Shown in pieces: positions 14,037 through 50,499 of a stretch of DNA of 64,000 bases. This stretch comes from Erodium maritimum. Its lineage: Eukaryota > Streptophyta > Magnoliopsida > Geraniales > Geraniaceae. The notes below the pieces were generated by a model, which was not told where the DNA came from, ran no database searches, and worked only from the letters and a program-made list of their open reading frames with translations. The stretch covers positions 67,688,039-67,752,038 of the forward strand of contig OY997593.1 of NCBI GenBank assembly GCA_963921825.1, given 5' to 3'. Position numbers and translations under genes: made by a program. How positions within the stretch are numbered: the first letter of the stretch is position 1; each line of letters starts with the position of its first letter.

Positions 14037-14130
14037 TTGGGATGGATGGTTGGAGAAGATACACTTGGTTTTGATGGGGTTTTGTTGTTGAATAGCTCTG
14101 TTAGTTTCTGCGGACAGGCTTGGTTTTGGC

Positions 14131-14139
14131 CCTTCTGGG
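14131..14139. repeat. Left 9-bp target duplication of the giant MULE
   Basis: CCTTCTGGG directly precedes the element start GGACCAATTT and is repeated exactly at 33321-33329. Nine bases is the standard MULE target duplication length. Confidence 0.85.
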
Positions 14140-14439
14140 GGACCAATTTCTAAAAAGGACTTATGCCAATATCGATTTTGAAAAAAACACTCACCCAATA
14201 TGTATTTTGAAAAAAGGCCTTCAAGACCCTCAACTCAACCAAAGTTGGTCAATGCCGAAACTACCCTTTTGTATTTGGTCAAAATTCCTAAAATGAGGGT
14301 AGCCCCCAATTTCGGCAGCCCCGTCCCCGCCATTTTCAGACCCAGGCACCTCTGAAAACCAGCACCGAGCGGCGTCCACCGCCGTCCACCGGACCACCGC
14401 CGTCCACCGGACAGAGTGTGCCACTGAAGCAAGGTCCAA

Positions 14440-14954
14440 GTAAGTTCAATTCATCCTCACCCTCTTCCAATTTCGTAAATTTCAGTTATAGGTTTTAGTT
14501 GAACTTCGAATTGAGGATGGTTTAGGTTTAGAAATTGGCCCTTTTGAGTGGTATAAAGTAGTGAATGGATTGGAATGGAATAAGGGAGCGAGAAAAAACT
14601 ATAAATTGGATTGGAATGGAATAGGGGAGCGAGCAGCAAAAACTGTAATTACCAGTAGGAGCCGCACGGGCAGAAGAGGTTGAAGACGGACCCCGCACGG
14701 GCGGAGGTGACCATGCGGCCAGGGTAGGTAGAAGACAGAAACCGCACGGCTACACGCAAATGATATACCCGTGCGGTGGCATATGACATACAGGTGTAGT
14801 GACCGCACGGCCGTATACAGCCGTGCGGGAGCGCTTGTCAGTGCCCGTGCGGGTGGTTAGCCACCGTGCGGCCAGTTGCATATCCTGGAATTTGTAATAT
14901 ACTTTGTGAAGTTGTAATTGTGAGGTTTTGTAATTGTTGTTTTTGTTGTCACAG
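14440..14954 (+). other. Predicted 5'-UTR intron of the MULE transposase
   Basis: A donor GTAAGT at 14440 and an acceptor TTGTCACAG ending at 14954 bracket a 515-bp segment just before the ATG at 14957. It contains a duplicated GGATTGGAATGGAAT block (about 14570-14625) and the first cluster of eight CCGTGCGG/CCGCACGG motifs. Intron status is predicted from splice signals only. Confidence 0.45.
14662..14871. repeat. CCGTGCGG/CCGCACGG motif cluster 1
   Basis: Exact 8-mers start at 14662, 14693, 14742, 14769, 14803, 14821, 14845 and 14864, in both orientations, with one-base variants between them (for example CCATGCGG at about 14711). Non-coding, directly upstream of the transposase. Confidence 0.85.
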
Positions 14955-14956
14955 GA

Positions 14957-17403
14957 ATGGGTAGAGTTGCAATACGTGTTACTTACGGTGGGGAATATAA
15001 GGTAGAGGGTGGCAAGTATAACTGGGAATCAGAAAACGAGATAGTTAAAGTTTTCCTGTTGATTATAGTACAACACTGAACACAGTGAAGCATCGCATTT
15101 ATGCTAGGATCGGGGTGAAGGATAGTGATTAAAGCTTAGTTACGTACCTAAGGGGTTTGAAGGAGGATTGACGCCAGAGGAGATCATTGACAATGTTAGT
15201 CTTCAGTGTTTTATAATGGAGAACAGTAATTTAGAATCCAGGGTCGCCTTACGTGTAGAACTGATCAAGAAAGATATCAATGGGGTCGTAGCTGAAACGG
15301 TGGAAGTTGAACAGGGGGTGCAATGTGTTGCAGTTGAGAATCCTGAACATGGAAACAGTGGGCGGGATAATTTTTTTGACGTTGATATTTGGAGTGGTGC
15401 GGGTGTTAATGAAAACCTAGTTATTCGGCGGCGTCCACCACCTAGAGAAAGTGATTCGGATTGGGGAGTATATTCAGAAGCATCATCTCCTACGCCACCA
15501 CCGGTAAGCTTGGATGAAGATAACGGTCAAATTGTGGAGTATGTTGCTCGGAATCAGCAGTTTCCGATAGATACGGTTGATCCAGAACAAACCAGGATCG
15601 GATTTAGGGATGAGTCAGATTTAGTAGTTGGCAAAGAGTTTCGGGACAAACAAGCAGTGATGATGTATCTGACAGAGCTTCAGCAGAAGAAGAATTTTCG
15701 GATACGCCGTGATAGATCAAACAAGGAATTATACGTTGCAAAATGTGTATGCGATACTTGTGGATGGAGGGTGCGTGCAGCAAAGGATCGGGGATCAGAT
15801 ACTTTCACCATCAGAACCTATGAGTCTTTGCATACTTGTCAGACCAGTGATCGGAACACCCAAAACAGGTCTTCTGACAACGGAACAAATTGCTTGTAGG
15901 TTGGCTAAAAAATATGCTGGTGGGAAAAGGATTCCCAGACCTTTGCTAGTTCAAGATGAATTGTTCGGAGATGGTTTAGGCGAATACAAATACTGGAAAT
16001 GCTGGAAGGCAAGAAAACTGGCGTTGATTAAACTTGTAGGGGATCCTGAATTAAGTTATGGATTACTCCCTCTGTATTTGGAACAGGTTCGAAAGCATAA
16101 CGAAGGCGCAGTAACTCATTTGGAGGTGGATGAACACAATAGATTTAAATATGTTTTCGTAGCATATCGACCATGCATTACTTGTTTTAACACTGCTTTA
16201 AGGAAGGTGCTCGCAGTAGATGCGACGTGGTTGAAAACACAGTATCAAGGGATTATGATAATTGCTACAGGTCAAGATGGTAATCATCACCAATATCCAG
16301 TTGCATGGGCGATAATTCATGACTCGGAGAACAACGCGTCATGGGGATGGTTCTTCGAAAAGTTGAGGTCGTTGATCCCGGACGAGGAGGACTTGGTTAT
16401 AATTTCTGATAGGCATAAAAGTATCATCCATTCAGTGGCGACCCTCTACCCAAATGCTAAACATGGCCATTGTAGGTGGCATCTCACCCAAAATGTCAGA
16501 GATTATCATGGGGGTCAGCCGAAAGACAAATTGTCAAGTTTATTCGAAAAAATCGTTGATGCTTACACAGTGGAGAGGTTCCTAGCCAAGTTCGAAAAGT
16601 TGAAAGCAGTGTACCCCAAGGCAGCGCAATATCTGGAGACAACGAACCTAGAACGTCCTCAATGGGCGAGAGCTTACTTCGAAGCCGCTCGGTACAATCT
16701 CATGACCACGAACGGTTCTGAGTGTATCAACAATGCAATACTAGAAGAGAGAAAGTGGCCTATTGTAGAGCTGTTAAACGCCATGCAGAGACTGGTTAGT
16801 CATTGTTTCATGCTTCGTTTAGATGTGTTGGAAAAATTACCTCCTTCCCAAGCTGTTACTCCTAAGGTAGAGAGTATCGTGTCAAGTAGGAATGAGCTAG
16901 TAAAAGACTGCCGAATAATACCAATGAACCTACACGGGCAGTATCGGGTTAATAGTGAACAAAGTGACGTGTATGTTGATTTGGGGATGAAGCGTTGTAG
17001 TTGTCGGGTGTTTGATCTGGATAGAATTCCTTGTGAACATGCCTTAGCGTGTTGTCAGCATGCTCGGGTAGAGATATATTCCTTGTGCTCGAAATATTAC
17101 ACGGTAGAAGCATGGGCTCTGGCATATACTGGAACCATTTACCCAGTGTTGCGAGAAACATAGTGGAATCTTGATGAGGTTTCGGCTGAAGGTCGTAGAG
17201 AGGTTCTCCCTCCAGATTATGAAGTGAGACGCGGTAGACTAACTGAAAGAAGAATCCCTTCAGCAGGTGAGGTGCCAAGAGCGGCTCAAGCGGCTCCGAA
17301 GCGTCCCCGAAAATGTGGGAATTGTTCTAATGTTGGTCACAACAAACGCACATGCCCTGGGCTTGCGTCTGCTAGAGCATCTGCTGGAGCATCTACTGAG
17401 TAA
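14957..17403 (+). pseudogene. MULE transposase (MURA-like), frameshifted
   Basis: The DDE transposase that would cut and insert the element. The start ATG 14957 opens MGRVAIRVTYGGEYKVEGGK, the usual N-terminal fold of MULE transposases. The MuDR DNA-binding region lies at about 15625-15830 (VVGKEFRDKQAV...CDTCGWRVRA). The MULE catalytic domain follows at about 16150-16500 with VLAVDATWLKTQYQG (first Asp) and VIISDRHKS (second Asp). A SWIM zinc finger (CSC...CEH, about 16990-17045) and a CCHC knuckle (CGNCSNVGHNKRTC, about 17311-17352) complete the protein. Breaks are shifts near 15048, 15130 and 15860, and a TAG at 17161-17163 before the zinc knuckle; the final stop is 17401-17403. Domain order is complete, so the parent was autonomous. 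Confidence 0.85.
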
Positions 17404-17585
17404 GGATTTGAATTTCATTATGGTACTACTATTTGGTGAGTGAGGACAATATATGTATTTGATTATGCTACTATTTGGTGACTGAGTGTGCTACATGTAT
17501 TTCATTATGCTAGTGTTTAGGTTTGATGTGAATCGCTTGGTGTTAATGGGTGTAGTGCATATTGTCGTGCGGTCAGAAGTGGGCA

Positions 17586-17810
17586 CCGTGCGGCAGTACA
17601 ACCAACAGTAGTAATGTGTTTAGCCACCGTGCGGTAATCATAGGTCACCGTGCGGTCGAACAGAGAGCAATCGTACTGCGCAAGATATGACCACACGAAT
17701 GGTTATTGACCCGTGCGGGTGACCCGTGCGGTAAGTTCACCACCTGTAGTATTGATCTCTGATCCACCGTGCGGCAGTACAAAAACCCGTGCGGCCTGAT
17801 CACCACACGG
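17586..17810. repeat. CCGTGCGG/CCGCACGG motif cluster 2
   Basis: Exact copies start at 17586, 17627, 17648, 17711, 17724, 17767 and 17787, with variants such as TCGTGCGG (about 17565) and CCACACGG (17803). It lies between the transposase end and the convergent 82-aa gene. Confidence 0.85.
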
Positions 17811-17983
17811 TGTTTTACCTCAAACAATCAAAAATTAGCCATGTAAAGATCAGAATAAAACAGCTTCAACGTTAAACATGTTCCACGTTAAACATCAACC
17901 CTACTTATTACAAGAAAGACTCACACGTATTGTAAAATGTGTGGTCTTTATTTCCGAGACATATAGCATAAACTTTAAACGGA

Positions 17984-18232
17984 TTACCAACGCGCTGGAC
18001 CCATGTCATCACCCGTGGTGAATGACAAGAGGTAGAACTCAAGGTTGTCAAGCTCTTCCACGAGCTTGGTAGCTTTCTGCATGTCTTCCTCTGACCAGTC
18101 TGTTGTATCGCCCGCCCGGACCTCCTCCCGAACCTCCTCTCGAAGTTGGACCGCCTTCGGAAGGATCCGTAGGAGAGCTGTCTTGATTTTCTCGAACCTC
18201 CACATCATCTCACCATGGTTGTGTGCAGCCAT
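17984..18232 (-). CDS. Small helical hypothetical protein (82 aa) of the MULE
   Basis: The open frame from ATG at 18230-18232 to TAA at 17984 encodes MAAHNHGEMMWRFEKIKTAL followed by charged helical sequence (REEVREEVRAG, then SEEDMQKATKLVEELDNLEF). It looks like two alpha-helices, perhaps a coiled coil. I recognise no family. The frame is intact while its neighbour genes are broken, and it sits between two clusters of the CCG-dyad motif. The longer upstream frame starts with GTG, so I prefer the internal ATG. Confidence 0.5.
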   Translation of the reverse strand: MAAHNHGEMMWRFEKIKTALLRILPKAVQLREEVREEVRAGDTTDWSEEDMQKATKLVEELDNLEFYLLSFTTGDDMGPARW

Positions 18233-18408
18233 GGCTGATTTTCTGTTTATCAAATGAATAGATGAAGTGAGAAAAGTGAGTGTACACTCACTCACATTTA
18301 TAGGCGAGGTTGTTAGTGTGGTTAGTTGGTTCCATGACCTGTGGTGTGGTGGTTAGAGTAAATGGTTACATTGAATGTGAGGTGGTTAGGCACATCTTCC
18401 TTTGATGC

Positions 18409-18462
18409 CCGCACGGCAAGTGGTGATGCCCGCACGACTTGAGGTCATTCATGCCCGCACGG
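18409..18462. repeat. CCGCACGG motif cluster 3
   Basis: Exact copies start at 18409 and 18455, with the variant CCGCACGA (about 18430) between them, all in the same orientation and each preceded by GATGC or CATGC. Upstream of both flanking small genes. Confidence 0.75.
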
Positions 18463-18837
18463 CTCGAGGTCATTTCTGTCAATCCCCCACAGATGATGTA
18501 ACTACTCCCTGGACAAAATCTAAACTTTGCAGTACAAAATCTGTGAATACCTATTCAGTCACTACATCCAAGAAAACTTTGCAGATTAATGTCTCTCATT
18601 AATATATCTCACCACCCACTCATCCACCAACTCCAACCCTCTTTACTCTTATTCGCATTGGGCCTATAAATGTGGCTTATGAGGACCATTATTTGTACTC
18701 CAACAAACCTCATTTCCAGCCTATCAATTATCTGTCAAGTTTTCTCGGAATACGTATTCGACGAATGTTCTTGCATTAACATGTTGTATATGTGTTTGTT
18801 TTTTTAGTAGTGTAAGCATGTATATGTTTGTGACAGA

Positions 18838-19236
18838 ATGGATCCCAACCGTGTGAACCGTGCGGAGCGTAGACTGAGGTGCTGGATTCGCCGGGAGCTA
18901 GCCGGAGAATACGTAACAATGTTGGCCGATGGCACCATAGTCAGAATACCCGAACGGCTTTACCAAGCACCGAAACCAGCATGGTCTATAGAGTACTACC
19001 GCTTAATTGAAGAATTCAATCAGGGCTTGGACCGACTGGAGGCAGTCATGCACCAGAAACGTTTACCATGTCCTCCACTCCCTCCTGGTGAAAACCCATT
19101 TATTCAACCGTCGATTAACGAGGATGACCTACTTCATTCTTTCGAGGAGCCAGCTTGGTTCCGGGGTTTCAGACAGTGGATGCTTCGAAACCAACAAATT
19201 GTACAAAGTCTGATTGACAATCTACTTGCTGCGTAA
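18838..19236 (+). CDS. PAWS/PAWF-family hypothetical protein (copy 1, 132 aa)
   Basis: An intact frame from ATG 18838 to TAA. The basic N-terminus (MDPNRVNRAERRLRCWIRRE) is followed by VRIPERLYQAPKPAWSIEYY, a helical stretch with RLEAVM, a Pro-rich linker (PCPPLPPGENPF), then DDLLHSFEEPAWFRGFRQWM and a short C-terminal helix. Three related copies lie further right in the same MULE (19503-19856, 26764-27118, 27726-28121). The two PAW motifs suggest a repeated half-structure. No known family is recognised; a role in the transposon is inferred only from repeated retention. Confidence 0.65.
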   Translation: MDPNRVNRAERRLRCWIRRELAGEYVTMLADGTIVRIPERLYQAPKPAWSIEYYRLIEEFNQGLDRLEAVMHQKRLPCPPLPPGENPFIQPSINEDDLLHSFEEPAWFRGFRQWMLRNQQIVQSLIDNLLAA

Positions 19237-19317
19237 GAGTGTATTTTGGATTTGAACTGTATTACTTATGCTACTTGGTTGAATGAAGTTTATGGTTGTT
19301 GGACTTAGCGAATGATG

Positions 19318-19430
19318 CCGCACGGGTTATTCTTTGCCGCGCGGTTATATGTTCATGGACCCCGTGCGGGTGTGTTGACTGGCCGCATGGTTTAGACTTA
19401 AAGCCGCACGGTCAGTTTTTGACCGCACGG
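19318..19430. repeat. CCGTGCGG/CCGCACGG motif cluster 4
   Basis: Exact copies start at 19318, 19362, 19404 and 19423, with variants CCGCGCGG (19337) and CCGCATGG (about 19383). It lies between the converging copies 1 and 2 of the PAWS/PAWF gene family. Confidence 0.8.
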
Positions 19431-19502
19431 TTTATCAGAGACGGATGCAAAAATGACTTTGGAAGTTCAATTCCATTATTAGTGAAGTTGAAATCAGTTA
19501 CA

Positions 19503-19856
19503 TTAGATGGCAGAGAGTTGTCTAATAATTCTCTCGTCACATTCTTTCACCTGACCCATCCACTGAAGCCAACGCTGGAACCAAGCAGGCTCTTCGACGG
19601 AATTAAAGTCATCCTCAATCCAGTCTGTCCAACGAGGCCTTTGACACGGGGGCCTAGGAGATGGTGCCACGTCTTTCTCACGTTCCAAGCGCTCAATGAC
19701 TTTCAACCGCTCACATGCGTCATCGATTAGTCGGTCGAACTCAATCGACCACGCGGGTGTGAATCGCTTGGTGTTAATGGGTGAGGGTATTCGCTCCAGA
19801 CGAGCTTCACGTCGCCTCCATCGTTGCTCCAGACGAGCATCGTGGTTTGGGTCCAT
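19503..19856 (-). CDS. PAWS/PAWF-family hypothetical protein (copy 2, 117 aa)
   Basis: An intact frame from ATG at 19854-19856 to TAA at 19503. It begins MDPNHDARLEQRWRRREARL and continues with FTPAWSIEFDRLIDDACERL, a helical ERLEREK stretch, a Pro/Arg linker, then FNSVEEPAWFQRWLQWM. It shares the two PAW motifs and spacing of copy 1 but lacks the VRIPERL segment. Its 5' flank (19870-19950) is closely repeated at 27120-27215, upstream of copy 3, so copies 2 and 3 arose by duplication of the whole gene. Function unknown. Confidence 0.65.
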   Translation of the reverse strand: MDPNHDARLEQRWRRREARLERIPSPINTKRFTPAWSIEFDRLIDDACERLKVIERLEREKDVAPSPRPPCQRPRWTDWIEDDFNSVEEPAWFQRWLQWMGQVKECDERIIRQLSAI

Positions 19857-20125
19857 ACTGTCACACACACATAATATGGTTACACCACTTCAACAAACAC
19901 ACACATATACAAAAAACGATTATTCATGAACAGAAGACAAATACCCGAGAAGAAGATGAACTTGAATATGTGTATAAGGAACCAAGGTAGTGATAATGAG
20001 GCTAATCAACCTCATTTATATAAAATTAGTAAGAGTTTAGGCATTAATTTCGTATGGGGAGTTGCTGCCAAGGCATTAATGGCGCACGGGGAACTGTTGC
20101 TTAGACTTTAATGGTTGACAGCAAA

Positions 20126-20294
20126 CCGTGCGGTCAACCCATGAATCCCGCATGGGTGCCGCATGGGGTCGATATTAGGGTTTCTCACCCGGGCGAGTGA
20201 TTGATATCCGTCATCAATGCCTATCCGCACGGGTTAGGAACCCTCATATATACCCCATGCGGGACCCGTGCGGGTCCTTGTGCCTACCGCGCGG
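20126..20294. repeat. CCGTGCGG/CCGCACGG motif cluster 5
   Basis: Exact copies start at 20126, 20225 and 20266, with variants CCGCATGG, CCATGCGG and CCGCGCGG (20287). Non-coding, between PAWS/PAWF copy 2 and the acidic gene. Confidence 0.8.
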
Positions 20295-20420
20295 TTCAGT
20301 CTCAGACCCAAAATGTTCCCTATTCCCTATGTGTTGTTGGGGACATTAAATTTGTTAGTACCTACTACCCACCAACCCAAGCCAAAGTAAGAGTTAGGGT
20401 TTATAAGCTATGTGTTAGGG

Positions 20421-20816
20421 TTAGGGTTTAGGGAATATATTCCTTCCATAAAGTTGGTTACATCAAATCGATGTAAGGAGGAATATATTCTTCCTCATCT
20501 TCTATAAGTAACAACAATGGAATTACATAATACGCGCACACTCATAATCTACTACATCATCACTTCATGTAATGTCAAGGGTTATTCTACTTCCCAACCC
20601 ATAGCCAGGGTTAGGGTTAGGGTTAGGGTTAGGGTTTCGGGTACAATGAGTAGGGTTTAGGGTTTAGGGAATATATTCCTTCCATAAAGTTGGTTACATC
20701 AAATCGATGTGAGGAGGAATATATTCTTCCTCATCTTCTATAAGTATCAACAATGGAACTACATAATACTTGCACACTCATAATCTACTACATCATCACT
20801 TCATGTAATGTCAAGG
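20421..20816 (+). repeat. Tandem duplication (236-bp step) of the acidic gene's promoter
   Basis: About 160 bp beginning TTTAGGGAATATATTCCTTC is present at 20425-20580 and again, nearly identical, at 20661-20816. Both copies run through the start codon. The first copy's ATG (20572) reads only ten codons before TAG, while the second (20808) opens the acidic protein. The duplicated unit includes GAATATATTC palindromes. Confidence 0.8.
20606..20636 (+). repeat. Short telomere-like GGGTTA repeat
   Basis: Four to five consecutive GGGTTA units ending in GGGTTTCGGG, between the two promoter copies. Similar single units occur at about 20390-20430 and 26601-26615. Too short to be a true interstitial telomere. 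Confidence 0.6.
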
Positions 20817-23800
20817 AAAGACTACTCTCCTTCCTACGACTCCTCATCCGATGGAAGCTATACTTCGCTTATCGATGGATGTGGGCGTAATACTCCACCA
20901 GAAGGACAGTATTCATCTCTGGCCCAAGAATACCCCGAAGATGAAGAGCAAGGAGAAGAAGAGCCACCGGAAGAAGAAGAGCCTCCCGTACACGACTATC
21001 CAGTGCAAGGAGAAGGAGAAACTGAAGTATATGGTAGCGATACATTGAAAGGAGAAGGCAATTGTAAGACCTGCTCCCGGTCGAACCGATGACTCAAGAA
21101 GTCACTCGGGGCTTTCCCGGAATCCAAACGACCTAGCCATCATCACGGTTGGCTTAAGGGGAGAAATTCCTTTCGTTTGAGTATAATGTTGGAGAAAGTC
21201 AATTTTGGTCAAAACGAGACTTTTTATCGACTAAAAGCATTATTTTATTGTGCTGGAATTTATTTTGGAAAAGTAAATAACCTATTTGGACACTTGTCCC
21301 TTTTTGGTTGAAAGAGAGAGAAGGGAGTATTCTTAGACCCTTTTACCCTCCCAAAAGCTTCTTCAAGGGATTATAGCTCAAGGGCTTTTAGTCATTTGAC
21401 ACATCTAGGTATTATATGAGTTTGGAAAAGCAAAACCAACCCATTTTTACTTGGTGTAGCCGAAATTTGGAGTAGGAGCAAGAGAGAGGAGCTCCCATGG
21501 AGCTTTGAAGAAGAATCAAGGAAGAAGAGGCCACTTGAAGCCTTCCTTTAGCCAACCCTTCTCCAAATCCTCACCATCTTCTTCATCTCAATCTTCTAGA
21601 GGTAATGGAACTCTCTAATCCTCATTCCTCTTCATCTCTTTTCATGGGTTTTGGGTGAAATTGCTAGATGTTGTTGGGTTTGAGTAGAAATGGGGGGAGA
21701 TGTTGTTGATGAAAGGCTTTGTTGGGTTTTTGGTGAGAAATCATTAGTTTGTTGGAGCTTTTAAGTTGGTTTTGATTTGATGAATCATTAGAAACTTGCT
21801 TATTTGTTATTTTCTACCATGGGTAGGGGAGTATTGAGGGATTTGGACTGTTTTGGGAGTTGGAAGGGGCAAAATTTGGGGTTTGAAGGTGGTTTTTCGG
21901 AGAAAATGAGCTGGAGGTTGAAGAAGGGAAAAACTGTCCTGGTGCGTCACGGATCCGTGACGGATCCCGTGACGGCACTCGTCACGGCTCCGTGATGGTA
22001 ACCGTGATGGTTGGCCTCACGGATCCGTGATCAGGTTTGTGACAGACCAGGGTGGGGGTTTCTTTGAGGGTTTTTCACCTTGGTTGATCTTGGTTTTGGG
22101 CTGAACTTTGGAGGGACTTTGGGGGTTTTACTTTCTGTTTAAGTGGAGTCTAATTTAACGTTTCTTTGTGTCCAAGACTTTGGGGATCGAGCTAGAGGAG
22201 CAAAGATCACGCCGGGACCCGAGTGAAGAACGGAGTGGTGACCACCGGGCTTCATCAAAGTGTTGAGAGGAAGACCTCGAGGTAGGGAAAGCCTTAACTA
22301 CTCGTTTATGATGCTTAGTATGCATGTTAGGCTAATAAAATTGGAAAGGTCCTAGAAATTCCTATAGGATGCGAATAACTAGATTAATCGTCTTTCAATT
22401 TCTAATAACCGGAAGTGTCTAGTGGTGAATGAATAGGATGCCAATCACTAGTGTAACTCGCTTTCATTACTTGGGAAATTGTTTGACTGGCAGAGTGGCC
22501 TTGGCAAAGCCCTCAGATTAGTTGAGTGTTAGGATCACATGCTTGGTTGTTTGGTTGCTTAGTGGATAGGCTAAAGAGTCTAATGGAACTAGTTGAATTG
22601 CATGTTTGAATGCTCGATTGAAGGTTTTATTGATTGGTTGATTAAATTCGTACTTGACCGTTGAATGTATTTGAATGATTGCTTGTTGTCCTTAAATGGT
22701 TACTTGGAGCATCGAGTATGACTGGTTGTACCGAGCGGTGCAATCAGGTGATCGATGCCCCGTTGGTGCGAGACTGGTAAGTGAACGGTAAGTTGTGATT
22801 GTGTGATTGGTGTGCTATGATTATGTGATTCGTGTACTGTGTGTTGTGGTGAATTGGTAATGTGTGAGCTATGTGTGGCAATGAATTGGTGGTTGTTTGG
22901 GACTGGATTGTTTCGTGTTTTCAGTTTGAGTGCGTTATTCAATTATTAACTGATTATTATTGAATTGCCCAAGAGTATGCTTCCTATGGGAGTAATACCT
23001 TGGTTCCCGAGGACCTAAAATCCTTTAGAGACGTTTCTGAGACTTCCGACGATATGTGCCCTGAAGGGTGTTTCCGATAGTCTCAATGATATGCGTCTCC
23101 TCTGGATTGGAGGGAAAATCCGAGAGGACACATCATATGTGGATCGGAGGGTGGTGACTCCATGTGCCACGGCATTTGTCACGCCCAAAATCCGGTTATC
23201 GCCCGGACCCGAGGCATGACGGGTAAGAGAAGACAGTAAAGCAAAGAAACAATATTAAATCTCGAAAATCTCCAGTGAGTACTCCAATCCATAACCTCAA
23301 GTACAGTATAAGTAACCCTCAGGGGGTGTGGTAATAAGTTTTTACCAGACTGTTTTTAAATAAAGGAAATAAACATGAAGTCTCTATGAACCCACACCGA
23401 GAAGCGCTCAAGCTTCTACTCTTCAGTCAAGCCTGTAGACACAACATCAAAACAAAGGGGTGAGCTCACGCTCAGTAGGGAAAACGCATGACAAGGTAGA
23501 CCTTAACTCGAACAAGATCAACAATAAAGTTAACAGAAAATAACTTAACAAAACAAGGGTAATAAGTAAACAAATCAATGCCGTGGCACATGAAGTCACC
23601 ACCCTCCGATCCACATGATGTGTCCTCTCGGATTCTCCCTCAAATCCAGAGGAGACGCATAACATTGAGGCGACCGGAAACAACCCTTCGGGGCGCTTAT
23701 CATCGGGATTCTCAGAAACGTCTCCAAAGGATTTTATGTCATTGGGAACCCAGGGCCATACTCCCGTAGGAGCGCACACGTGGGCAATTTAATAAATAAC

Positions 23801-26404
23801 CAATATATCATCCCACACCGGACTCCCCAACGGTGTAGGTACCATACCATAACAACAATCAACTCTATCTCACCCTACACCGGACTCCTCAACGGTGTAG
23901 GTACCATATCGTATCAACCATGATTCCATAACATCTTAGCAACACGCTTACCGAAACTTAACACCAACCAATCCAACCACAGTCAAACCACTAACACACA
24001 TAGTTCACCCATCACCAATTCCCATCGCACACAGTACACAAATCACTAGATCAATTCACACCAATCACACAATTCCAACTTACCGTTCACTTACCAGTTT
24101 CGAACCACCGGGGCATCGATCACCTGATTGCGCCGTGCGGTACAACCAGTCATACTCGATACCCCCAACAATCAATCAAGTAAATCAAGTAATCATTCGA
24201 ATACAAACAACGAGCAGGTACGAGTCTGATCAACCAATTAATCATAAAGCCTTCGAAAGAGCATTCAAACATGCAATTTCACTAGTTTCATTAGACTCTT
24301 TAGCCTATCCACTAAGCAACCAACAACCAAGCATGTGATCCTAACACGCAACTAATCCGAGGGCTTTGCCAAGGCTCCTCTACCAGACAAACATATCCCA
24401 AATATTGAAAGCGAATTATACTAGTGATTGGCCTCCTAATAGGTCACCACTAGACACTCTGGTTATTAGCAATTGAAAGATGATTAAGCTAGTTATTCGC
24501 ATCCTATATGCATATCTAGGACCTTTTCCAATTTTATTAACCTAGCATGCATACTAGGCATCGTAAACGAGAGGTTAAGGCTTTCCCTACCTCAAGGTCC
24601 TCCTCGTCAACGCTTTGGTGAAGTCCGGTGATCACCACCTCGCTCTTCCCTCGGGCCTCGGTGTGATCCTTGCTCCTCTAGCTCGATCCCCAAGGTCTTG
24701 GACACAAAGAGGCACTAATTAGGTTCCACTTAAACAGTAAGAAAGACCCCCAAAACCCTTCCAAAGTTCATCTCAAAACCAAGGTGTAAACCCTTCGACA
24801 AATCCCCAAGAAACCCTCACTCTGGTGGGTCGCGGATCTGGTCACGGATCTGTGATGGCAACCCTCACGGTCGCCGTCACGGAGCCGTGACGAGTGCCGT
24901 CACGGACTCCCTCACGGAGCCGTGACGTCGCCCGTCACGGGATCCGTCACGGATCCGTGACGCACCAGGGCAGTTTCGCCCTTCTTCAACCTCCAGCTCC
25001 AAAACTCCGAAAATCTACCTTCAAACCCAGAAATTTACCCTTTCCAACCCCCAAAACAGTCCAAATCCTCCAATACTCCTCTACCCATGGTAGGAATCAA
25101 CCCACAAACAAGTTTTCCAAGGATTCATCAAATCAAACCTACTTCAAAATCTCCAACAACTATTGATTTCTCACCAAAATCCAACAAGGTTCATCATCAA
25201 CACCATCTCCTATCATTTCTACTCAACCCCCCATCATCTAGCCATTTTTCACCCAAAACCCAAGGAAATAGATGAAGAGGAAAGATGAGTAGAGAGTTCC
25301 ATTACCTCTAGGATGTGGAGATGAAGAGGATGCTAGTGATTTGGAGGGTGGGAGGCTAGAAGATGACTCCACAAGGCTCCTTCTTCTTTGATTCTCCTTC
25401 AAGCTTCCATGGGAGCTCTTCTCCCTTTCTTCCTCTCCAAATTTCGGCTACAACAAGCAAATAGGAAAATGATTTTGCTTCTCCAACACATATAATACCT
25501 AAATGTTGCAATGACTTAAAGGCCCTTGAGCTAGAAACCCATGTAGGAGCTTTTGGGAGGGTAAAAGGGACAATAACTATCCCTTTTTCTCTCATTCAAC
25601 CAAAATAGGACAAGTGTCCCTCTAGCTCATTTAATTTCCCAATTTAAATTCCAGCACTTTTAAAAATTGAAGCTTTAGTCGATATGAAGTCTCGTTTTGA
25701 CCAAAATTGACTTTATGCAATATTATATTCAAATGAAAGGGTTTTCTTCCCTGAAGCCAACCGTGATAATGGCTACTTCGTTTGAGTTCCGGAGAAGTCC
25801 CGAGTGACTTCCGGAGTTACCGGTTCGACCGGAAGCGGGTCTTACAGCATTGATCGGTTTACCTATTGCCTGTGATTGTTAAGACTTATCTTGTTGACTT
25901 TGCTGTTGATTCTATTGAGTTTAAGGTCCACCTTGTTATGTGTTTTCCCTACTGAGCGCAAGCTCACCCCTGTGAGTTTATTGTTGTGTTTACAGGCTTG
26001 ATTGAGGAGTAGAGGCTCGGGAGCTTCCCGGTGTGGGTGTCTATAGAGACTTCGCTTTTATTTTATTTCGGTTTGGAACAGATTTTGTGAAGGATTATTA
26101 TTACACCCCTGGAGGGTTCTTTATGTTTTAAACTAAATTTTGTGGATTTGAGTTTCTTATTGGAGTTTTTTTCAGGAATTTATTATTGAGTTATTGTCTT
26201 TTAATCACTTATTCCTAGTCACGCCTTGAGTCCGGGCAAGAACCGGATTTGGGGCGTGACAGCAATACTGAAGTATATGGTAGCAATACAGTCAAACTGT
26301 TTGGAGATACTGAACAATATGGTAGCGGTGAAGTTGAAAGCGGTGATGAGGCAACATCGGCCTTCAATGGCCCACAACGGTCAACCCCTAAGAAGAAAAA
26401 GTAA
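20808..26404 (+). CDS. Acidic hypothetical protein (130 aa), split by an LTR insertion
   Basis: The frame 20808-21062 (ATG, 85 codons) breaks exactly at an LTR insertion and resumes in the same frame at 26267-26404 (45 codons and TAA) once the insert and one copy of the GCAAT duplication are removed. The protein is Ser/Tyr-rich at first (MSRKDYSPSYDSSSDGSYTS), then strongly acidic (EDEEQGEEEPPEEEEPP), then carries short repeats of TEVYGS/TEQYGS and ends in the basic PKKKK. An acidic domain plus a nuclear-signal-like end suggests a nuclear accessory protein, but no family is recognised. The clean reading across the insert shows the gene was intact when the LTR arrived. Confidence 0.7.
21951..22034. 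repeat. Array of TCACGG/CCGTGA inverted motifs in LTR A
   Basis: About eight CACGG or CCGTG cores in 85 bases, several joined as the palindrome TCACGGATCCGTGA. The same kind of array occupies the equivalent place in the two other LTRs of this family. Confidence 0.75.
23177..25846 (-). mobile_element. Solo LTR B (same Ty3 family), inverted and nested
   Basis: Read on the minus strand it starts TGTAAGACCCGCTTCCGG (from 25846) and ends GGGCGTGACA at 23177. It is flanked by GCATT at 23172-23176 and 25847-25851. Length is 2,670 bp. It is clearly related to LTR A in the opposite direction, and no internal coding region is present. It contains one CCGTGCGG copy (about 24133) and its own TCACGG/CCGTGA array at 24840-24963. 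Confidence 0.8.
24840..24963. repeat. Array of TCACGG/CCGTGA inverted motifs in LTR B
   Basis: At least ten CACGG or CCGTG cores in about 125 bases, arranged mainly as inverted pairs such as TCACGGAGCCGTGA and TCACGGATCCGTGA. Confidence 0.75.
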
Positions 26405-26449
26405 CATTTGCAAGGGTTTTGAACTTGTACATTCCTTTATGTCCTGCCC

Positions 26450-26650
26450 GTACGGGTGGGTCGTTAACCGCACGGGTGTATAAGTACACCGCACGCGTAA
26501 CCATTTAGCCCGCACGGGTGTATAAGTAGACCGCACGGGTTTAGAAGTAGACATCACGGGTTTAGAAGTAGACCGCACGGGTTTAGAAGTAGACCGCACG
26601 GGTTAGGGTTAGGGTTTGTGACCCCACACGGTGTACTCACCGCCGTGCGG
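26450..26650. repeat. CCGTGCGG/CCGCACGG motif cluster 6
   Basis: Exact copies start at 26468, 26510, 26531, 26573, 26594 and 26643, with variants CCGTACGG (about 26449) and CCGCACGC. Several units repeat as GGTTTAGAAGTAGACCGCAC with a step of about 20-22 bp. It lies just after the acidic gene. Confidence 0.85.
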
Positions 26651-26763
26651 GTGTATAATGTTTTTAGCATGGTCATGTTATTGACTGCACGGTTGAGTAG
26701 AGCCAGATTCAAAAATCATGATTAAAGATGAAATCCATTATTGTTCAAGGCCATGACAGTACA

Positions 26764-27118
26764 TTACATGACAGACAGTTGGTTAATAACACGGTCATCA
26801 TGGTCTTTCATCTCAGACATCCACTGAACCCAACGCGGGAACCAAGCAGGCTCCACGACCGAATCTAAGTCATCCACAATCCCGTATGTCCAACCAGGCC
26901 TTTCCAACGGGGGTCCAGGATATGGGGCGTCTTTCTCACGCATGAGGCGCTCAATGAATTCCCACCGGTCCATGGCGTCAAGGAGTCCTCGGTCGAAAAG
27001 CAAGCACCCACGCGGGTTCAGGTGGTGGGCACCTACGCGGGAGATGTCCTACTATGTTTCTTGTCGCTTCGCGTCGCCTCCATCGTCGCTCAAGACGTGC
27101 ATCGTGGTTTGGGTCCAT
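26764..27118 (-). pseudogene. PAWS/PAWF-family protein (copy 3), frameshifted
   Basis: The ATG at 27116-27118 opens MDPNHDARLERRWRRREATR, as in copy 2, but after a PAW motif the frame shifts near 27000-27030. The rest continues in another frame as LLDAMDRWEFIERLMREKDA, then VEPAWFPRWVQWM, to TAA at 26764. Closest to copy 2, with shared 5' flank. A broken gene. Confidence 0.65.
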
Positions 27119-27414
27119 GTTGTCACAAACATAATATGGTTACACCACTTAAACAAAAACACACATATACAAAAAATAAGAATGCATGAACACAAGTCGA
27201 ATACCCGAGAAAAAGAGCTTGATGCCGTGTAGATGGAACGAAGTTAGTGAAGAGGTTTGCTTTGAAGATAAAATGAGGCTAATGAACCTCATTCATAGGA
27301 AATGTTTAAGGGTTTAGGCATTAATGTCGCTTGGGGAGTTGTTTCTAACACATTAATGGGTTCGGCATTCAATGGTTGACTCATTAATGGTCAGTCCATC
27401 TGGTAGGTGACAGC

Positions 27415-27500
27415 CCGTGCGGCAGACAGCACACCCGCACGGGTGCAAAACCCTAATTTCGACCCTTTTTGATCACGCGCAGGTGTAAGTATCATCCGCG
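27415..27500. repeat. CCGTGCGG/CCGCACGG motif cluster 7
   Basis: Exact copies start at 27415 and 27435, with the palindromic variant CCGCGCGG near 27492. It lies between copies 3 and 4 of the PAWS/PAWF genes. Confidence 0.7.
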
Positions 27501-27725
27501 CGGGTTTCTGTCAACTCTATGGACTGCACAGTACGTAGTCAAACATAACTCCCAACCCATTAATGTTTGGCAACAACTCCCGCTGCGACATGAATGCCTA
27601 AACCCTAACTCCATACCCATTAAAGTCTTAGCAACAACTCCCTGGGCTACATTAATATTGTTATCATAAATTTATGTATTTATGTAAAAGAAAAGTTATA
27701 TTTATTAATCCGAAAACCAAATACA

Positions 27726-28121
27726 CTAAGTAGCCTGAAGAGTGTCAATGAGACTCATCTCGATTTCTTTGTTCCGAGCCATCCACTCTACGTAACCCTG
27801 GAACCAAGAAGGCTCATCGAAAGAATCAAGCAGGTCCTCCTCTGTTACCGAAGGGTGTGGTACAAGAGGGTTTGCACCGTAAGGGGGTGCGGGACATGGT
27901 AGATGCTTGTCGCGCATGAGTCGCTCAATTTGTTCCAAGCGCTCATTTGCTTCTTCGAGTAAGCGGTAGTACTCGACCGACCATGCTGGTTCTGGTGCTT
28001 GACACAGCCGTTCGGGAACGCGAACTATCCGGCCGTCACTGATTCTGGTGATGATTCCGGCATTCTGCTGTCGCCTCGAGGGGATGAAGCCAGGAAGAAG
28101 AGGATCGCGGTTCGGTTCCAT
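27726..28121 (-). CDS. PAWS/PAWF-family hypothetical protein (copy 4, 131 aa)
   Basis: An intact frame from ATG at 28119-28121 to TAG at 27726. It starts MEPNRDPLLPGFIPSRRQQN, then has VRVPERLCQAPEPAWSVEYY, a helical NERLEQIERLMRDK, the linker PCPAPPYGANPL, and EDLLDSFDEPSWFQGYVEWM. It is the closest relative of copy 1 (same VRxPERL and linker), although on the opposite strand. Conservation of both PAW motifs between diverged copies suggests past selection on the protein. Family and function unknown. Confidence 0.65.
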   Translation of the reverse strand: MEPNRDPLLPGFIPSRRQQNAGIITRISDGRIVRVPERLCQAPEPAWSVEYYRLLEEANERLEQIERLMRDKHLPCPAPPYGANPLVPHPSVTEEDLLDSFDEPSWFQGYVEWMARNKEIEMSLIDTLQAT

Positions 28122-28381
28122 CCTGTTCCAAACATATACACGCTTACACAACAAAAACAACTATGAAGAGGGAAGCTTTGACGAGAGCAGTGAAGATAAT
28201 GGGTGTGCTGAAGCCCATTTATGGGCGTAGTGACATTAATAGGCATGCCAAGTTATATTTGGGGCATTAATAGGCATTCAGAGGTGTTGTTGGGATATTA
28301 ACAGCATCCAAAGGCGTTGTTGGGACATTTATTGTGCCAACAATAATAATATATTTTATTTCAAAATATTAAAATTGGACC

Positions 28382-28842
28382 CCGTGCGGCCTACCTACGG
28401 CCCTCACGGGTGCACACAGACGACGTCGGGTTGACAGCAAAATGTGCGGCCAACCCATGTCCCTCACGGGTGCAAACAACATATGTCAAAGTTGACAGCA
28501 AACCGTGCGGCTATTTCCTTTTTCCCGCACGAGTTCCACAACATAAGTCAGGGTTGACAGCAACCCGTGCAGTGATTTCCTTATTCCCGCACGAGTTCCA
28601 CAACATAAGTCAGGGTTGACAGCAACTCGTGCGATGATTTCCTTATTCCCGCACGAGTTCCACAACATAAGTCAGGGTTGACAGCAACCCGTGCGGTGAT
28701 TTCCTTATTCCCGCACGAGTTCCACAACATAAGTCAGGGTTGACAGCAACCCGTGCGGCCAACCCATGGACCCGTGCGGTCGTACAGAGAGTTTTATACT
28801 AACCCTCGTATAACCGCACGGTTGAGTGTCACACCCGCACGG
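28382..28842. repeat. CCGTGCGG/CCGCACGG motif cluster 8
   Basis: Exact copies start at 28382, 28503, 28689, 28751, 28772, 28814 and 28835, with variants CCGTGCAG, TCGTGCGA and CCGCACGA between them. It overlaps the 62-bp tandem array. Confidence 0.85.
28430..28765. repeat. 62-bp tandem array carrying the dyad motif
   Basis: The start GTTGACAGCA recurs at 28430, 28491, 28553, 28615, 28677 and 28739, a step of 61-62 bp. Each inner unit holds one CCGTGCGG-like and one CCGCACGAG site plus TTCCACAACATAAGTCAGG. The last units differ mainly inside the motif. Not a CRISPR: there are no unique spacers. Confidence 0.85.
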
Positions 28843-29013
28843 CAAAATGCATTCCAACAGTCATGCCAATCAACGCACAAGACATAAGTACCAAATAAGA
28901 AACACAATTACATTCAAATCCTTAATGTACAAAAACCTAAGTACCAAATACTCCAAAACCTTGTTGGCCTCACACTGTACGACAGTTATAAACAAATGTT
29001 TGATCTCCAAAAC

Positions 29014-32000
29014 CTACAGAATGAGTTGCCAGTTCGACATGGCCTCAATGGCATACTTTTTCCGATACTGCTTCATAATGCTGTCTCTTAAGTGATTGTC
29101 GAACTCCATTTCTGCCAACTTCAGCTGGATCATCTTCAGCGTGCATATCCTAGTGTCGCCACGACTACCAAAATATACACCGGAAATGTTAAACATTACA
29201 TAAACTGTGTACCTATGCAAATTAAACGGAGGAAATTTCACACTTACACTTTTGTCTGATGTACATCCGGGACCCTCAGGTGGGTGAATGGTTCCTCGTA
29301 CAAGATCTTGTTCTCCTCGTCCAAGTATCCTGAATGTAACATCATCCTCGGTATCATGCAGGCATACGACCTAATCAACACTTTTAGCTCATCATCCGAT
29401 GTCCACCAGTTGAAGTTGTCATAGACATTAATGTTCCTTCCGGCTAGGTCAACCTCTAACAATATCCATGTCCAACCCGCGGTCCCCTTCACGTGCTGTA
29501 CTGGAAAGTAAACCTTCTGCAACTTTTTTCAGGTTTTCCTAAACTCCACTGGAGTATGACCAAGAACATATTCCATCAACAGAGTCGAAGGTTTACCCTG
29601 CATGCCTGTCTCGAACTCCACTCAGCATATCTCCTAGAACAACCCATCCAGTACAGAAGCCTCCTGATCAGTGAAAACACCCTTATACAGGCGTTGTTGT
29701 TTCCGTCTCCTGTACAACTGATCTTCCATTTGCTGTGTGCAATGAAAATCAATAACCAAGTAAATATTAGAATAAAAATGCATTTGTATTCAAAAAATTT
29801 AAGAATAGTTAGACAAAAGGTTATACAATAAATATAGTATACGAACCTCACAGGATACCGTTGTTCCAGCTTTCAAGAGGGTCTTGAAATATTGTTTACC
29901 CCTTGTGCCGTACGGAGTCGTGATTTCCTCGAACCCAACAAAGTTTTCCAACACCTTGGAATGTTTCTTAGCAGCACTTTTGTACGCCCCGCTCGGATTC
30001 CACACTTTCTGCGACTGCATTTCTACGTGGGACACCTCGCGTACTCTCTTCCTCTTTCTTGAACTAGGACCCTCAGTGTCTGGCACGTGTACCGTGATGT
30101 GTGGAGTAGAGTTCTGGGGAGCTGCGACAGGCGGTGTAGGAGTGACTTGTACGACATCCATCCAGGATTCACTTGACTTTTCCCCAAGTCCTGAACCTGC
30201 TGCACCTTCAAGATAAGTTTCATACCAGGAACTCGGTGTGCTCGTCCCCGACTTTGTCTGCTCTGCCGACGCTTCCACTGCCCCCTCTACCGGTCCTTCT
30301 TGCTGTACCAGGTCCTGTAACACAGACTGTACCACCTCGGCATCCTGTACTCGTGCAAGGACATACTCACTTCCTCCTCCAGATGCGGCAACACGGTCTT
30401 CGGGTTCCCCAGTAGAACCAGTAGTCTCCACTTCCAGTATTTCTCCATGAACGCCTGCAACTTGACCGGGAGGCCTTGACTGTGCACCATCATCCTGTCG
30501 AGATCTGGTGTCTGCTTCTGCGGCACGTTCACGGGCAGCGGCGTTGGCACGAAGTATCCTAAGGACCTCATCCATTTGAGTCCTTAACTCTGTAAATTGC
30601 CCCTGAGCCCATGTCCGCATCTCTCCCATTTCAGCTTTACAAGCTCGGATTTCTTCCAGGACAACTGACTGATCCACCGGTGCGGGCTCTCTGACATCTT
30701 CCTGTACGGGGTCTACCCGTACTTCTTCTCTGTCGGCTGTCTCCTCGACTGGCGGTGGCAAATCTACTCCTCCAGTTGCCTCTTCAGCAACCGGCTGAGC
30801 TGCAGGGTCCGACTGGACTACCTCATCATCCCAATGGATGGATCCTCCATTCTCCAAAAATGCAGACAGACGATCAATGTCGGAATTCGGATGCTTTTCT
30901 GGTAGTTGTCCGATATTCTGCATCCACGGGAGTAACATCTCCGCTGTCGTCGGGACGAGGACACTCTTGGCCACCTACACCTGCATGGACATAACAATTA
31001 CGCTACATTTTTGTGGCCCAGCTAAATCAAACTTAGGTAAATCAGAATACCAAATTAACATTTTTTTACCTCAACTTTTGCAAGTGCAGTGGTGACCTCT
31101 TCTGCAGACGGCGGCTTGGACCACTTCGGAGACCATTTGAAGAATCGTGGCTGCTCCCCCATGTAATCTTTATCTATGCTTGCCCATAATTTTGCCACTT
31201 CTGGCATGCACTCGAACGCCAATATCTGTGTAACATAAGTAGTCATTCAGAAACCCGTCAAATCATATATATATTTTGCGGATAATAAAATTATCGGTAA
31301 TTACTATTGTACGTACTGTCAACACGGGAAGAAAACCACAAATGGTCTAGGTTGAACCGCTGGTTGCAGTGGCGGACGCAACATACTTTGCCTTCAAATC
31401 TCGCATGCAATCCCTCCTCAGCCATTCGAAGGCTACATACCCCCATGGGTACTTGTTGAACATCTCGAGGTTATCCGCTAACCCGAACCAACAATCAGAC
31501 ACCCATTGACCTCTTTTTCCACTCGGTACCAATGCATCTGCGACGAAGAGAAGTTGAGCCAGTTTGCAAATGTCTAGATTTGGGGCTGACTTATTCCCTC
31601 GACTTTCAACCCGTTTAGTCACCAGTTCCTTCAACTTTGCCTCTAACGTCTCAGTCGACACACGCTCACCTTTTTTAAAATGTTTGGTCTTCAACACTGT
31701 GGACTTGAATTGTTGTTGGAGCGCTTCATCCCCATCGTTGGGTTGACTGCAATTCAACCCAGTTATCAGCGCAAAGTCCTTAAGGGTCAACCTGATCGGT
31801 CTCCCTTTAAACACAAACCACATCTCGGATGATCGTGGTATCTTCGTGCTCCTAGCCAATTGGGCCCACGCAAGGTTGTTGGCGTGCATCCACTTTTTTG
31901 GGATGTTAGTGAACCTCCCAAATGGACCCTCTTGGAGCAGTTCAATTGTCGACTTGTCATCTTTCAAGTCTTTCACCCTTGTTTCCAGCATTGTATAATT

Positions 32001-32126
32001 GCACCTCTGACTGAGCCGACATTGGAACAATTGATCTTCTGTTAGTTCTGTTTCCAATCGTGGATAGTCCTGAGGTGGTTCCGAGGGAGTCGCACTTGGA
32101 ACAGACTGAGAGGTACTAGCTGCCAT
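29014..32126 (-). pseudogene. VANC-like DUF1985 + Ulp1-like gene, with premature stops
   Basis: Five minus-strand exons join in frame: 31317-32126, 31070-31225, 29847-30974, 29248-29732, 29014-29164 (910 codons). ATG is at 32124-32126. Exon 1 carries a DUF1985-type domain (GPFGRFTNIPKKW, GRPIRLTLKDFALITGLNCS, LAQLLFVADAL), finished by GFLPVLT-ILAFECMP across the splice. Exon 3 is long, acidic and helical, with a basic nuclear-type signal SSRKRKRVREV. Exons 4-5 form a C48/Ulp1-like domain (WILLEVDLAGRNINVYDN). In-frame stops are TAG 31347-31349, TAG 29634-29636, TGA 29622-29624 and TGA 29529-29531. Arabidopsis VANC proteins of VANDAL MULEs have DUF1985, bind short motifs of their own family and remove silencing; by analogy this should be the motif-reading factor. 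Confidence 0.7.
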
Positions 32127-32213
32127 TGTCTGAACACGTACTACTACAATTCATCAGTACATGAAAATATGTACAGAAATGCAAATATCCACATGAACAA
32201 ACAGTGTAACTGC

Positions 32214-32294
32214 CCGTGCGGGTAGCATAACCAGCCGCACGGCTAACAGAGGCGTCATACACTAAATAACATTCTAACCGTGCGGGATCTGAAT
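32214..32294. repeat. CCGTGCGG/CCGCACGG motif cluster 9
   Basis: Exact copies start at 32214, 32235 and 32278; another occurs at 32687. It lies just upstream of the VANC-like start codon. Confidence 0.8.
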
Positions 32295-32345
32295 GTTCCC
32301 GCGCGATTTTAAACCGCGCATGACAGCTGTCCTCCAAATTAGAAA

Positions 32346-32905
32346 ATGCCGTCGTTTTCAGGCCAAGCGCGAGTTCGCGACACCGAAAACGACGTCGTTC
32401 CTTTCTCCCCACGCGGTTTATTCACAACTCGAGGGCCCAAAACGCCGTCGTTTTCAAGTCCCGCGCGAGTTAGCTCGGTGAAAACGACGTCGTGCTTTTG
32501 TCCCCGCGCGATGTTCACTACGACGCGCTTTTTACAGAGTTCCACCCCGTGCAGGTGTTCTCTTTCTGTATCCCAAAACGCCGTCGTTTCTTAGGCCCCG
32601 CCCGAGTCCACATCGTTCACATATCGATGGCCCAAAACTGCGTCGTTTCAACTACCCGTGCGAGAGGTGAACAGACCTACTCCATCCCGTGCGGTATACA
32701 CACCTACTCCCTCCCGTTCGGGTGAACATCGTGTTGTCGACCACCAAAACGCAACCGTTTCAGGTATGCCGCGCGGGACATAAGCCTCCGCGCGGGTTAC
32801 TGGTCCACAGTGAAACCCTTGCCTTCTTCTCCAAGGGTCAACACCAGTCGTGCGGGTTTAGGTCATCGTGCGGGGGACAGCAAAGGCCCCAAACTCACGG
32901 CGTTT
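32346..32905. repeat. Dispersed AAAACGNCGTCGTTTT-like motif in the right arm
   Basis: About eight copies of GCCGTCGTTTT, GACGTCGT or AACGCCGTCGT (near 32347, 32388, 32438, 32481, 32576, 32638, 32748, 32897) in 560 bases, intermixed with degenerate CCG-dyads. Non-coding, upstream of the VANC-like gene and inside the right MULE arm. Confidence 0.6.
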
Positions 32906-33320
32906 GCCTCACCAAACACCGTCGATTGGGCAACCCAGCACCGCCGATTTCTACTCCCTAGGGTTTCCATTTACTAATTCTACCCTAAATCTTACTTACA
33001 CTGCAATGAAATCGTACCTGGGAAGAAGTCGTTGTTGTGGATCTTACTCGCGACGGAGAAATTGCCGGCGTCGTTGACGGTTGCTCGGATTTGCAGAGAG
33101 AGAGAGAGCGGTTTGATTTGATGAGTTTGAATGAAGTGAGCGAGAGGGGAAGGAGTGGAGGGAAGTGAAGGGTCAGCCAGAGGGTATTTCAGTCCTTTCA
33201 TCGTTTTTTTGGTCAAACGCGGTCAAACTGGATCAAATGAAGGAAAAGTCAAAAATGGCAAAAGACGGAGGCTACCCCTCAAAATATATATTGGCATAAG
33301 GTCTTTTGGATAAATCCTCC

Positions 33321-33329
33321 CCTTCTGGG
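33321..33329. repeat. Right 9-bp target duplication of the giant MULE
   Basis: CCTTCTGGG directly follows the element end AAATCCTCC, identical to 14131-14139. Confidence 0.85.
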
Positions 33330-49898: not shown

Positions 49899-50499
49899 TT
49901 GTTATTGCAGCTTTCTTCTACTAGCTTTTTATTGTTTAAGAGGGTATTTCTCGACCTTGATGTAAGTATTTGCAGTTACCGTTTGATTCGTCAACATTTG
50001 TGGCATGATACGGGCTAATTTATCTTGTTCTTGTGACGAAGTCGTCTTGCTCATTCATGTACTCTTTGTCTTGCTTTCCTTTTAAATTTTTATGTACTCA
50101 AATATATTTTTGAATTTAGTCTATGTGTTTTAAAAGCTTATTTAAATATGTTTGAATATATTTTTTTTTTCTATTTCGAGTTGGCACAATTGGTTTTTTG
50201 TTGATTGACGCCTTAAATTTTTATTTACGAAATTGTGAATTTGGAATAAAGCTAAAAAATATATTGCAATTAGAATAATAATAAATTAGTCTTAATCCAA
50301 CCTATTAGCGTGCCTTGAGTTATTGCCAGTGTGATAGTTCGAAGCCAGATGAAACCTCGACTTAACATAAATATTAAGAACGTATTTTATGTTATGAATA
50401 TCATCAAGACTAGGTTGATAAATCTTATTGGATACCAATGACTGAACAATAGTGTGATCTTAACATTGTATATATCAAGAGATTTTTTGCATTGTATTG

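Follow-up and report, generated by a model that had tools for sequence, protein, structure and literature searches.

A CG-Rich 8-mer Arrayed in the Noncoding DNA of a Mutator-Like Element of Erodium maritimum as a Probable Target of Its VANC-Type Protein

INTRODUCTION

In Arabidopsis, the transposon VANDAL21 has an anti-silencing protein, VANC21, that is reported to bind the motif YAGTATTAY both in vivo and in vitro (PMC5735166). The same report describes these sites as dense, often tandem arrays in introns and in intergenic and terminal noncoding DNA, with a common orientation and an evolution by tandem repetition; low-density sites elsewhere are given as unbound, and the target elements as losing methylation (PMC5735166). 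A second protein, VANC6, is described there, from the loss of methylation and a test in vitro, as acting likewise on other elements, and is linked to the motifs AGTTGTCC and AGTTGTAC. RNA-directed DNA methylation is reported to target similar stretches with the reverse effect, and degenerate terminal inverted repeats are named as a VANDAL trait (PMC10398659). According to a review, VANDALs that carry Ulp1 also use family-specific motifs (PMC13317346). Here we describe a Mutator-like element (MULE) of Erodium maritimum that lies within 64,000 nucleotides of contig OY997593.1 (positions 67,688,039 to 67,752,038, assembly GCA_963921825.1; this whole stretch is referred to as the window). Its noncoding parts carry many copies of one CG-rich 8-mer, CCGTGCGG, and it encodes a homolog of VANC21.

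A previous sequence-only reading of the window had drawn attention to the 8-mer as a putative binding site and had named neither a VANC-type protein nor the known VANC systems; we confirm the observation, and we both support and sharpen its interpretation. We consider it likely, by analogy with Arabidopsis, that CCGTGCGG is the DNA target of the family's own VANC-type (DUF1985) protein in a VANDAL/Kaonashi-like MULE. Judged by titles and the opening lines of abstracts, a literature search did not yield CCGTGCGG or its reverse complement, CCGCACGG, as a transposon motif.

RESULTS AND DISCUSSION

A single 8-mer is concentrated in the element

CCGTGCGG and CCGCACGG are one 8-mer read in both orientations, and counts refer to the 64-kb window unless scoped otherwise. 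The two features on which the counts depend are as follows; positions are those of the window, and features listed here and below with no strand were assigned none.

14140..33320, entire Mutator-like element (19.2 kb with the nested insertion), bounded by target-site duplications and degenerate terminal inverted repeats
21063..25981, nested fold-back insertion of ~4.9 kb with long imperfect inverted repeats; edges approximate

The window contains 45 exact copies, all between 14662 and 32694, whereas 100 dinucleotide shuffles of it gave a mean of 0.40 and a maximum of 4. The sequence-only reading had estimated by eye about 43 copies in both orientations, against less than one by chance in about 14 kb of MULE sequence. 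Forty-four of the copies belong to the MULE proper (25 on the plus strand and 19 on the minus strand); the other, at 24133, lies in the nested insertion and is probably incidental. No exact copy occurs in the 44.8 kb of the window outside the element. The earlier reading had seen one copy in what it called LTR B and none elsewhere in the window; the insertion that hosts the copy at 24133 is here read as a fold-back element.

No other 8-mer of the element exceeds its expectation under a second-order Markov model as strongly as CCGTGCGG does (45 copies compared to 0.35 expected). Among the 120 permutations of its letters that retain two CpGs, counted in the element without the insertion, it has 44 copies against a mean of 0.68 for all; the next two (12 and 8 copies) are both one-base shifts of the CCGTGCGG site. 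One-mismatch variants are also frequent, as had been remarked: the element contains 42, compared to ~8 expected from first-order Markov sequences. Changes of C to T or G to A at the two CpGs make up 10 of these 42, so that CpG decay is not dominant.

The flanks of the sites vary. The preceding base is C in 24 of the 45 copies, A in 12, G in 9 and never T; the following base is T in 17, G in 14, C in 12 and A in 2; and although position −2 is A in 26 of 45, no flanking base is fixed. Grouped by flank similarity, the 44 copies outside the insertion make 32 groups, and the two largest have five and four members. Because the flanks differ to this extent, the repeated unit is the 8-mer itself. Each site contains two CG sites together with CCG (CHG-context) cytosines on both strands, a property correctly pointed out before, and with the CCG-NN-CGG dyad nothing but the central TG/CA distinguishes one orientation from the other.

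Exact copies are excluded from the named exons

Under a 150-bp gap rule the 44 copies form 12 clusters around the element's genes. Ten of these hold 2 to 8 copies each and two consist of one copy; the eye had counted nine. They are distributed as follows.

14662..14871, motif cluster 1, eight exact copies, upstream of the transposase open reading frame (ORF)
17586..17794, motif cluster 2, seven exact copies, downstream of the transposase
18409..18462, motif cluster 3, two exact copies
18858..18865, plus strand, single motif copy within the small ORF 18811-19236
19318..19430, motif cluster, four exact copies
20126..20273, motif cluster, three exact copies plus one-mismatch variants
26446..26650, motif cluster, six exact copies, mostly a 21-bp tandem array (TRF period 21, 6.6 copies)
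27415..27442, motif cluster, two exact copies
28382..28842, motif clusters, seven exact copies, partly a 62-bp tandem array (TRF period 62, 4.6 copies)
32214..32694, motif clusters, four exact copies, upstream of the VANC-type gene, with one-mismatch variants continuing to 32873

The exon spans of the transposase and the VANC-type gene account for 33% of the element without its insertion (14.25 kb) and contain none of the 44 exact copies (binomial P 2e-8, or P 0.008 when the 12 clusters are counted in place of copies). The claim that the clusters avoid the transposase and DUF1985/Ulp1 exons is confirmed by this result. As to whether clusters lie solely in noncoding parts, the exact copies avoid the named exons, one of the 44 (18858) is in a small unnamed ORF, and 4 of the 42 one-mismatch variants are in coding spans. 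The remaining variants are found in the insertion (4), in small ORFs (3) and in other DNA of the element (31). Exclusion from exons thus holds strictly for exact copies and more loosely for variants.

Clusters near the starts of the transposase, of some small ORFs and of the VANC-type gene are what would be expected if CCGTGCGG were a host transcription factor site driving the genes of the element. However, clusters also occur downstream of the transposase, the 44.8 kb of neighboring DNA lacks the site entirely, and 44 copies are, on general knowledge, far above usual promoter architecture. We regard a host factor as very unlikely.

Sites are spaced near whole helical turns

Spacing was examined in 63 adjacent pairs of exact or one-mismatch copies no more than 80 bp apart. 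In 45 of the 63 the distance is 18 to 22, 40 to 44 or 60 to 63 bp, near whole helical turns; these spacings are found in 23/36 same-orientation pairs and in 22/27 opposite-orientation pairs. Phase at 10.5 bp was R=0.51 for all 63 pairs and was kept in 54 flank-independent pairs (R=0.54). For 23 nonredundant exact distances, one per pair of flank groups, R was 0.51 at 10.5 bp and 0.57 at 21 bp, and among 5000 smoothed controls the fraction with a phase as strong was 0.0056 near 10.5 bp and 0.0014 near 21 bp. We take the phased spacing as a sign that neighboring protein molecules may share one face of the helix. Sasaki et al. (2022) reportedly found many VANC systems across eudicots, their specificity being determined by the sequence of the motif, its density and its helical periodicity; such periodicity would fit the ~21-bp spacing seen here.

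Some of the phase may stem from ancient tandem duplicates with diverged flanks. Plain tandem repetition is seen in two arrays, with 21-bp units at 26467-26604 and 62-bp units at 28476-28758, and it could be argued from them that the CCGTGCGG arrays are a functionless by-product of tandem duplication. Set against this are the 32 flank groups, the presence of both orientations, several clusters with no tandem structure and the persistence of the spacing in pairs with unrelated flanks. Flank diversity alone already largely refutes the by-product explanation, which we judge to be highly improbable. The motif has been lost from some units of the tandem arrays, and turnover is therefore visible between the units of one element copy. 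A longer block, GTTGACAGCAA, precedes the motif site in the 62-bp array (28414-28788) and also occurs at 20113, and is thus shared by clusters far apart, a possible trace of motif units having been exchanged inside the element.

The element encodes a homolog of VANC21

Two genes were recognized in the element, one on each strand.

15129..17163, plus strand, MuDR-type transposase (Pfam domains DBD_Tnp_Mut, MULE and SWIM), in two overlapping frames
31347..32150, minus strand, DUF1985 exon, VANC homolog (PF09331, E 4.3e-22)
29014..30974, minus strand, 3' part of the VANC-type gene, with a middle exon of low complexity and an Ulp1-like (Peptidase_C48) stretch that is interrupted

When the DUF1985 exon was searched against all solved structures, it matched VANC21 (PDB 9LNJ/9LNK) over ~200 residues with E 3.5e-13. 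This was the sole match below E 0.001, the next being an unrelated receptor at 0.045. A homolog search with the exon recovered one relative (P0001) among 612 candidates, and a two-sequence profile of the exon and this relative matched VANC21 at E 4.8e-16. Structure prediction from the same two sequences gave a mean pLDDT of 39, too poor for a fold search. The Ulp1-like stretch contains in-frame stops and matches Peptidase_C48 weakly in Pfam (16.9 bits, below the 20.7 cutoff); searched against solved structures, it gave no Ulp1 match. The transposase is readable only in two overlapping frames and is therefore probably frame-shifted in this copy, an intron being possible.

The strict 8-mer amid mostly unrelated flanks, the exon exclusion, the helical spacing and the VANC21 homolog support the proposal that CCGTGCGG is a binding site. 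The presence of this homolog also bears on whether CCGTGCGG might instead serve end recognition, with the transposase or a TnpA-like accessory protein as its binding partner. Spm carries subterminal repeats and provides the model for such a role. The outermost exact copies here lie 522 bp from the left end and 626 bp from the right, and the transposase of the element has a DNA-binding domain; TnpA, moreover, is also associated with demethylation (PMC10398659). Yet most clusters are deep inside the element, around its genes and not at its ends, and the terminal 500 to 600 bp on each side have no exact copy, with one-mismatch copies reaching 14365 and 32866. Together with a VANC21 homolog in the element itself, these positions make end recognition quite unlikely.

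How a VANC-type protein might use the arrays

Site number, exon-span exclusion, spacing and VANC21 homology were observed directly. From the Arabidopsis system we infer that the DUF1985 protein pairs with CCGTGCGG, binds it and brings about demethylation. We hypothesize that a VANC protein from this or a sister copy would bind the CCGTGCGG arrays in the noncoding stretches around the genes of the element. Neighboring sites ~21 bp (two helical turns) apart would align several VANC molecules along a single face of the DNA, and it is through this arrangement that dense, phased arrays would be occupied while lone 8-mers elsewhere were ignored. Bound VANC would then counter RNA-directed DNA methylation in the array stretches, and methylation loss would spread over the element, so that its genes could be expressed.

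Because each CCGTGCGG holds CG and CHG cytosines, the docking site can itself be methylated. It is conceivable, if rather doubtful, that the VANC docking site is itself a methylation target and that binding is gated by methylation, which would make the array a self-feeding switch. Binding could be blocked by methylation or, alternatively, attracted to it in the manner of a pioneer factor.

Several points weigh against assigning CCGTGCGG to the VANC-type protein. One copy of the element was read, as sequence only. The homology covers DUF1985 and would not prove that the protein reads CCGTGCGG. The Rayleigh-type P values assume independence among distances that are related, and the period of best fit moves between 10.3 and 11.1 bp by subset. 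Eight of the 42 one-mismatch copies are in coding spans or the insertion. Orientation is uniform in just 3 of the 10 multicopy clusters and mixed overall (25 to 19); this mismatch with VANC21 counts little, however, because the CCG-NN-CGG dyad makes the two orientations nearly alike. In addition, a stop ends the DUF1985 exon where P0001 reads on, the transposase switches frame, and in-frame stops interrupt the 3' part of the VANC-type gene. On these grounds this copy may not make its own proteins. Since its genes look damaged, its motif sites may, we infer, be served in trans by sister copies.

Structure and surroundings of the element

The following features delimit the element.

14131..14139, left 9-bp target-site duplication CCTTCTGGG, repeated exactly at 33321; the match reaches 10 bp if taken from 14130
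33321..33329, right target-site duplication CCTTCTGGG
14140..14181, plus strand, left degenerate terminal inverted repeat
33279..33320, minus strand, right degenerate terminal inverted repeat

CCTTCTGGG occurs on the plus strand of the window at these two places only (14131 and 33321). The terminal inverted repeats, compared as 14138-14181 and 33279-33322, are 75% complementary over 44 nucleotides. A transposase domain (PF10551, E 6.9e-20) and the 9-bp target-site duplication identify the element as a MULE, and the degenerate terminal inverted repeats and an encoded VANC-family protein, its gene apparently damaged in this copy, fit the VANDAL type. Telomere-like AGGGTT repeats at 20417-20636 and 26605-26616 flank the fold-back insertion, ~430 to 620 bp outside its set edges, and the segment 20410-20580 is repeated at 20646-20816 (95%).

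Small ORFs lie between the transposase and the VANC-type gene. Four of them, in both orientations, are related (18811-19236, 19503-19889, 26764-27048 and 27726-28160), the others being 27 to 55% identical to the first; a fifth has 13% identity with it. Five scanned against Pfam (those starting at 18811, 27726, 20784, 17984 and 19503) had no match, and a homolog search with one of the four related ORFs found none among 23 candidates.

A CG-rich, partly palindromic sequence, AACGNCGTCGT, has four copies at 32388-32587, 42 to 94 bp apart, upstream of the VANC-type gene, with no further copies in the window. The CpG observed/expected ratio is 1.20 in 32151-33311 with exact motifs masked, compared to 0.63 to 0.84 in ten other stretches of the element. 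CpG depletion as a sign of methylation history was nevertheless set aside, because the four AACGNCGTCGT copies lie in 32151-33311 and values up to 1.26 occur in 2-kb bins outside the element.

The element adjoins a minus-strand PAP/fibrillin-like gene (12979-14234; exon with PF04755, 2.1e-16) and probably sits in the promoter or 5' leader of that gene, whose start is predicted at ~13.9 to 14.05 kb from an ORF with no Pfam match. A separate retroelement has a long ORF at 50464-51984 with a reverse transcriptase domain (RVT_1, 2.5e-24).

Implications and comparison with known systems

If CCGTGCGG is read by the VANC-type protein, the VANC logic, in which a transposon undoes its own silencing by means of a private address word, would extend to a motif of very different makeup. 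Such systems may then be recognizable from raw sequence by an over-represented 8-mer confined to noncoding DNA, a phase of about two helical turns and a DUF1985 gene. The CG-rich motif makes possible a direct test of methylation-dependent VANC binding, and the CCGTGCGG system may serve as a further sequence-specific tool for plant methylation editing.

The Kaonashi (KI) MULEs and the ULP-bearing MULEs of grapevine and melon are described as combining a transposase with an Ulp1-like gene in reverse orientation (PMC2528002, PMC13317346), and the arrangement in the Erodium element is similar, although its Ulp1-like part is interrupted and matches Pfam weakly. Compared with VANDAL21 (Hiun), it is likewise a MULE with a DUF1985 protein, here a VANC21 homolog, and with degenerate terminal inverted repeats, and it has a dense short motif in noncoding parts, in partly tandem arrays, with exact copies absent from exon spans (PMC5735166). 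It differs from VANDAL21 in having an Ulp1-like stretch, in the mixed orientation of its motif and in using CCGTGCGG in place of YAGTATTAY (0 copies in this element). The motif differs from both of the published motifs compared, those of VANC21 and VANC6: it is CG-rich, with two CpGs per site, unlike the AT-rich motif of VANC21, and AGTTGTCC and AGTTGTAC occur two times and one time in this element. The likeness to VANC6 and VANDAL6, as these are described (PMC5735166), is that a different family has its own short motif under what appears to be the same logic.

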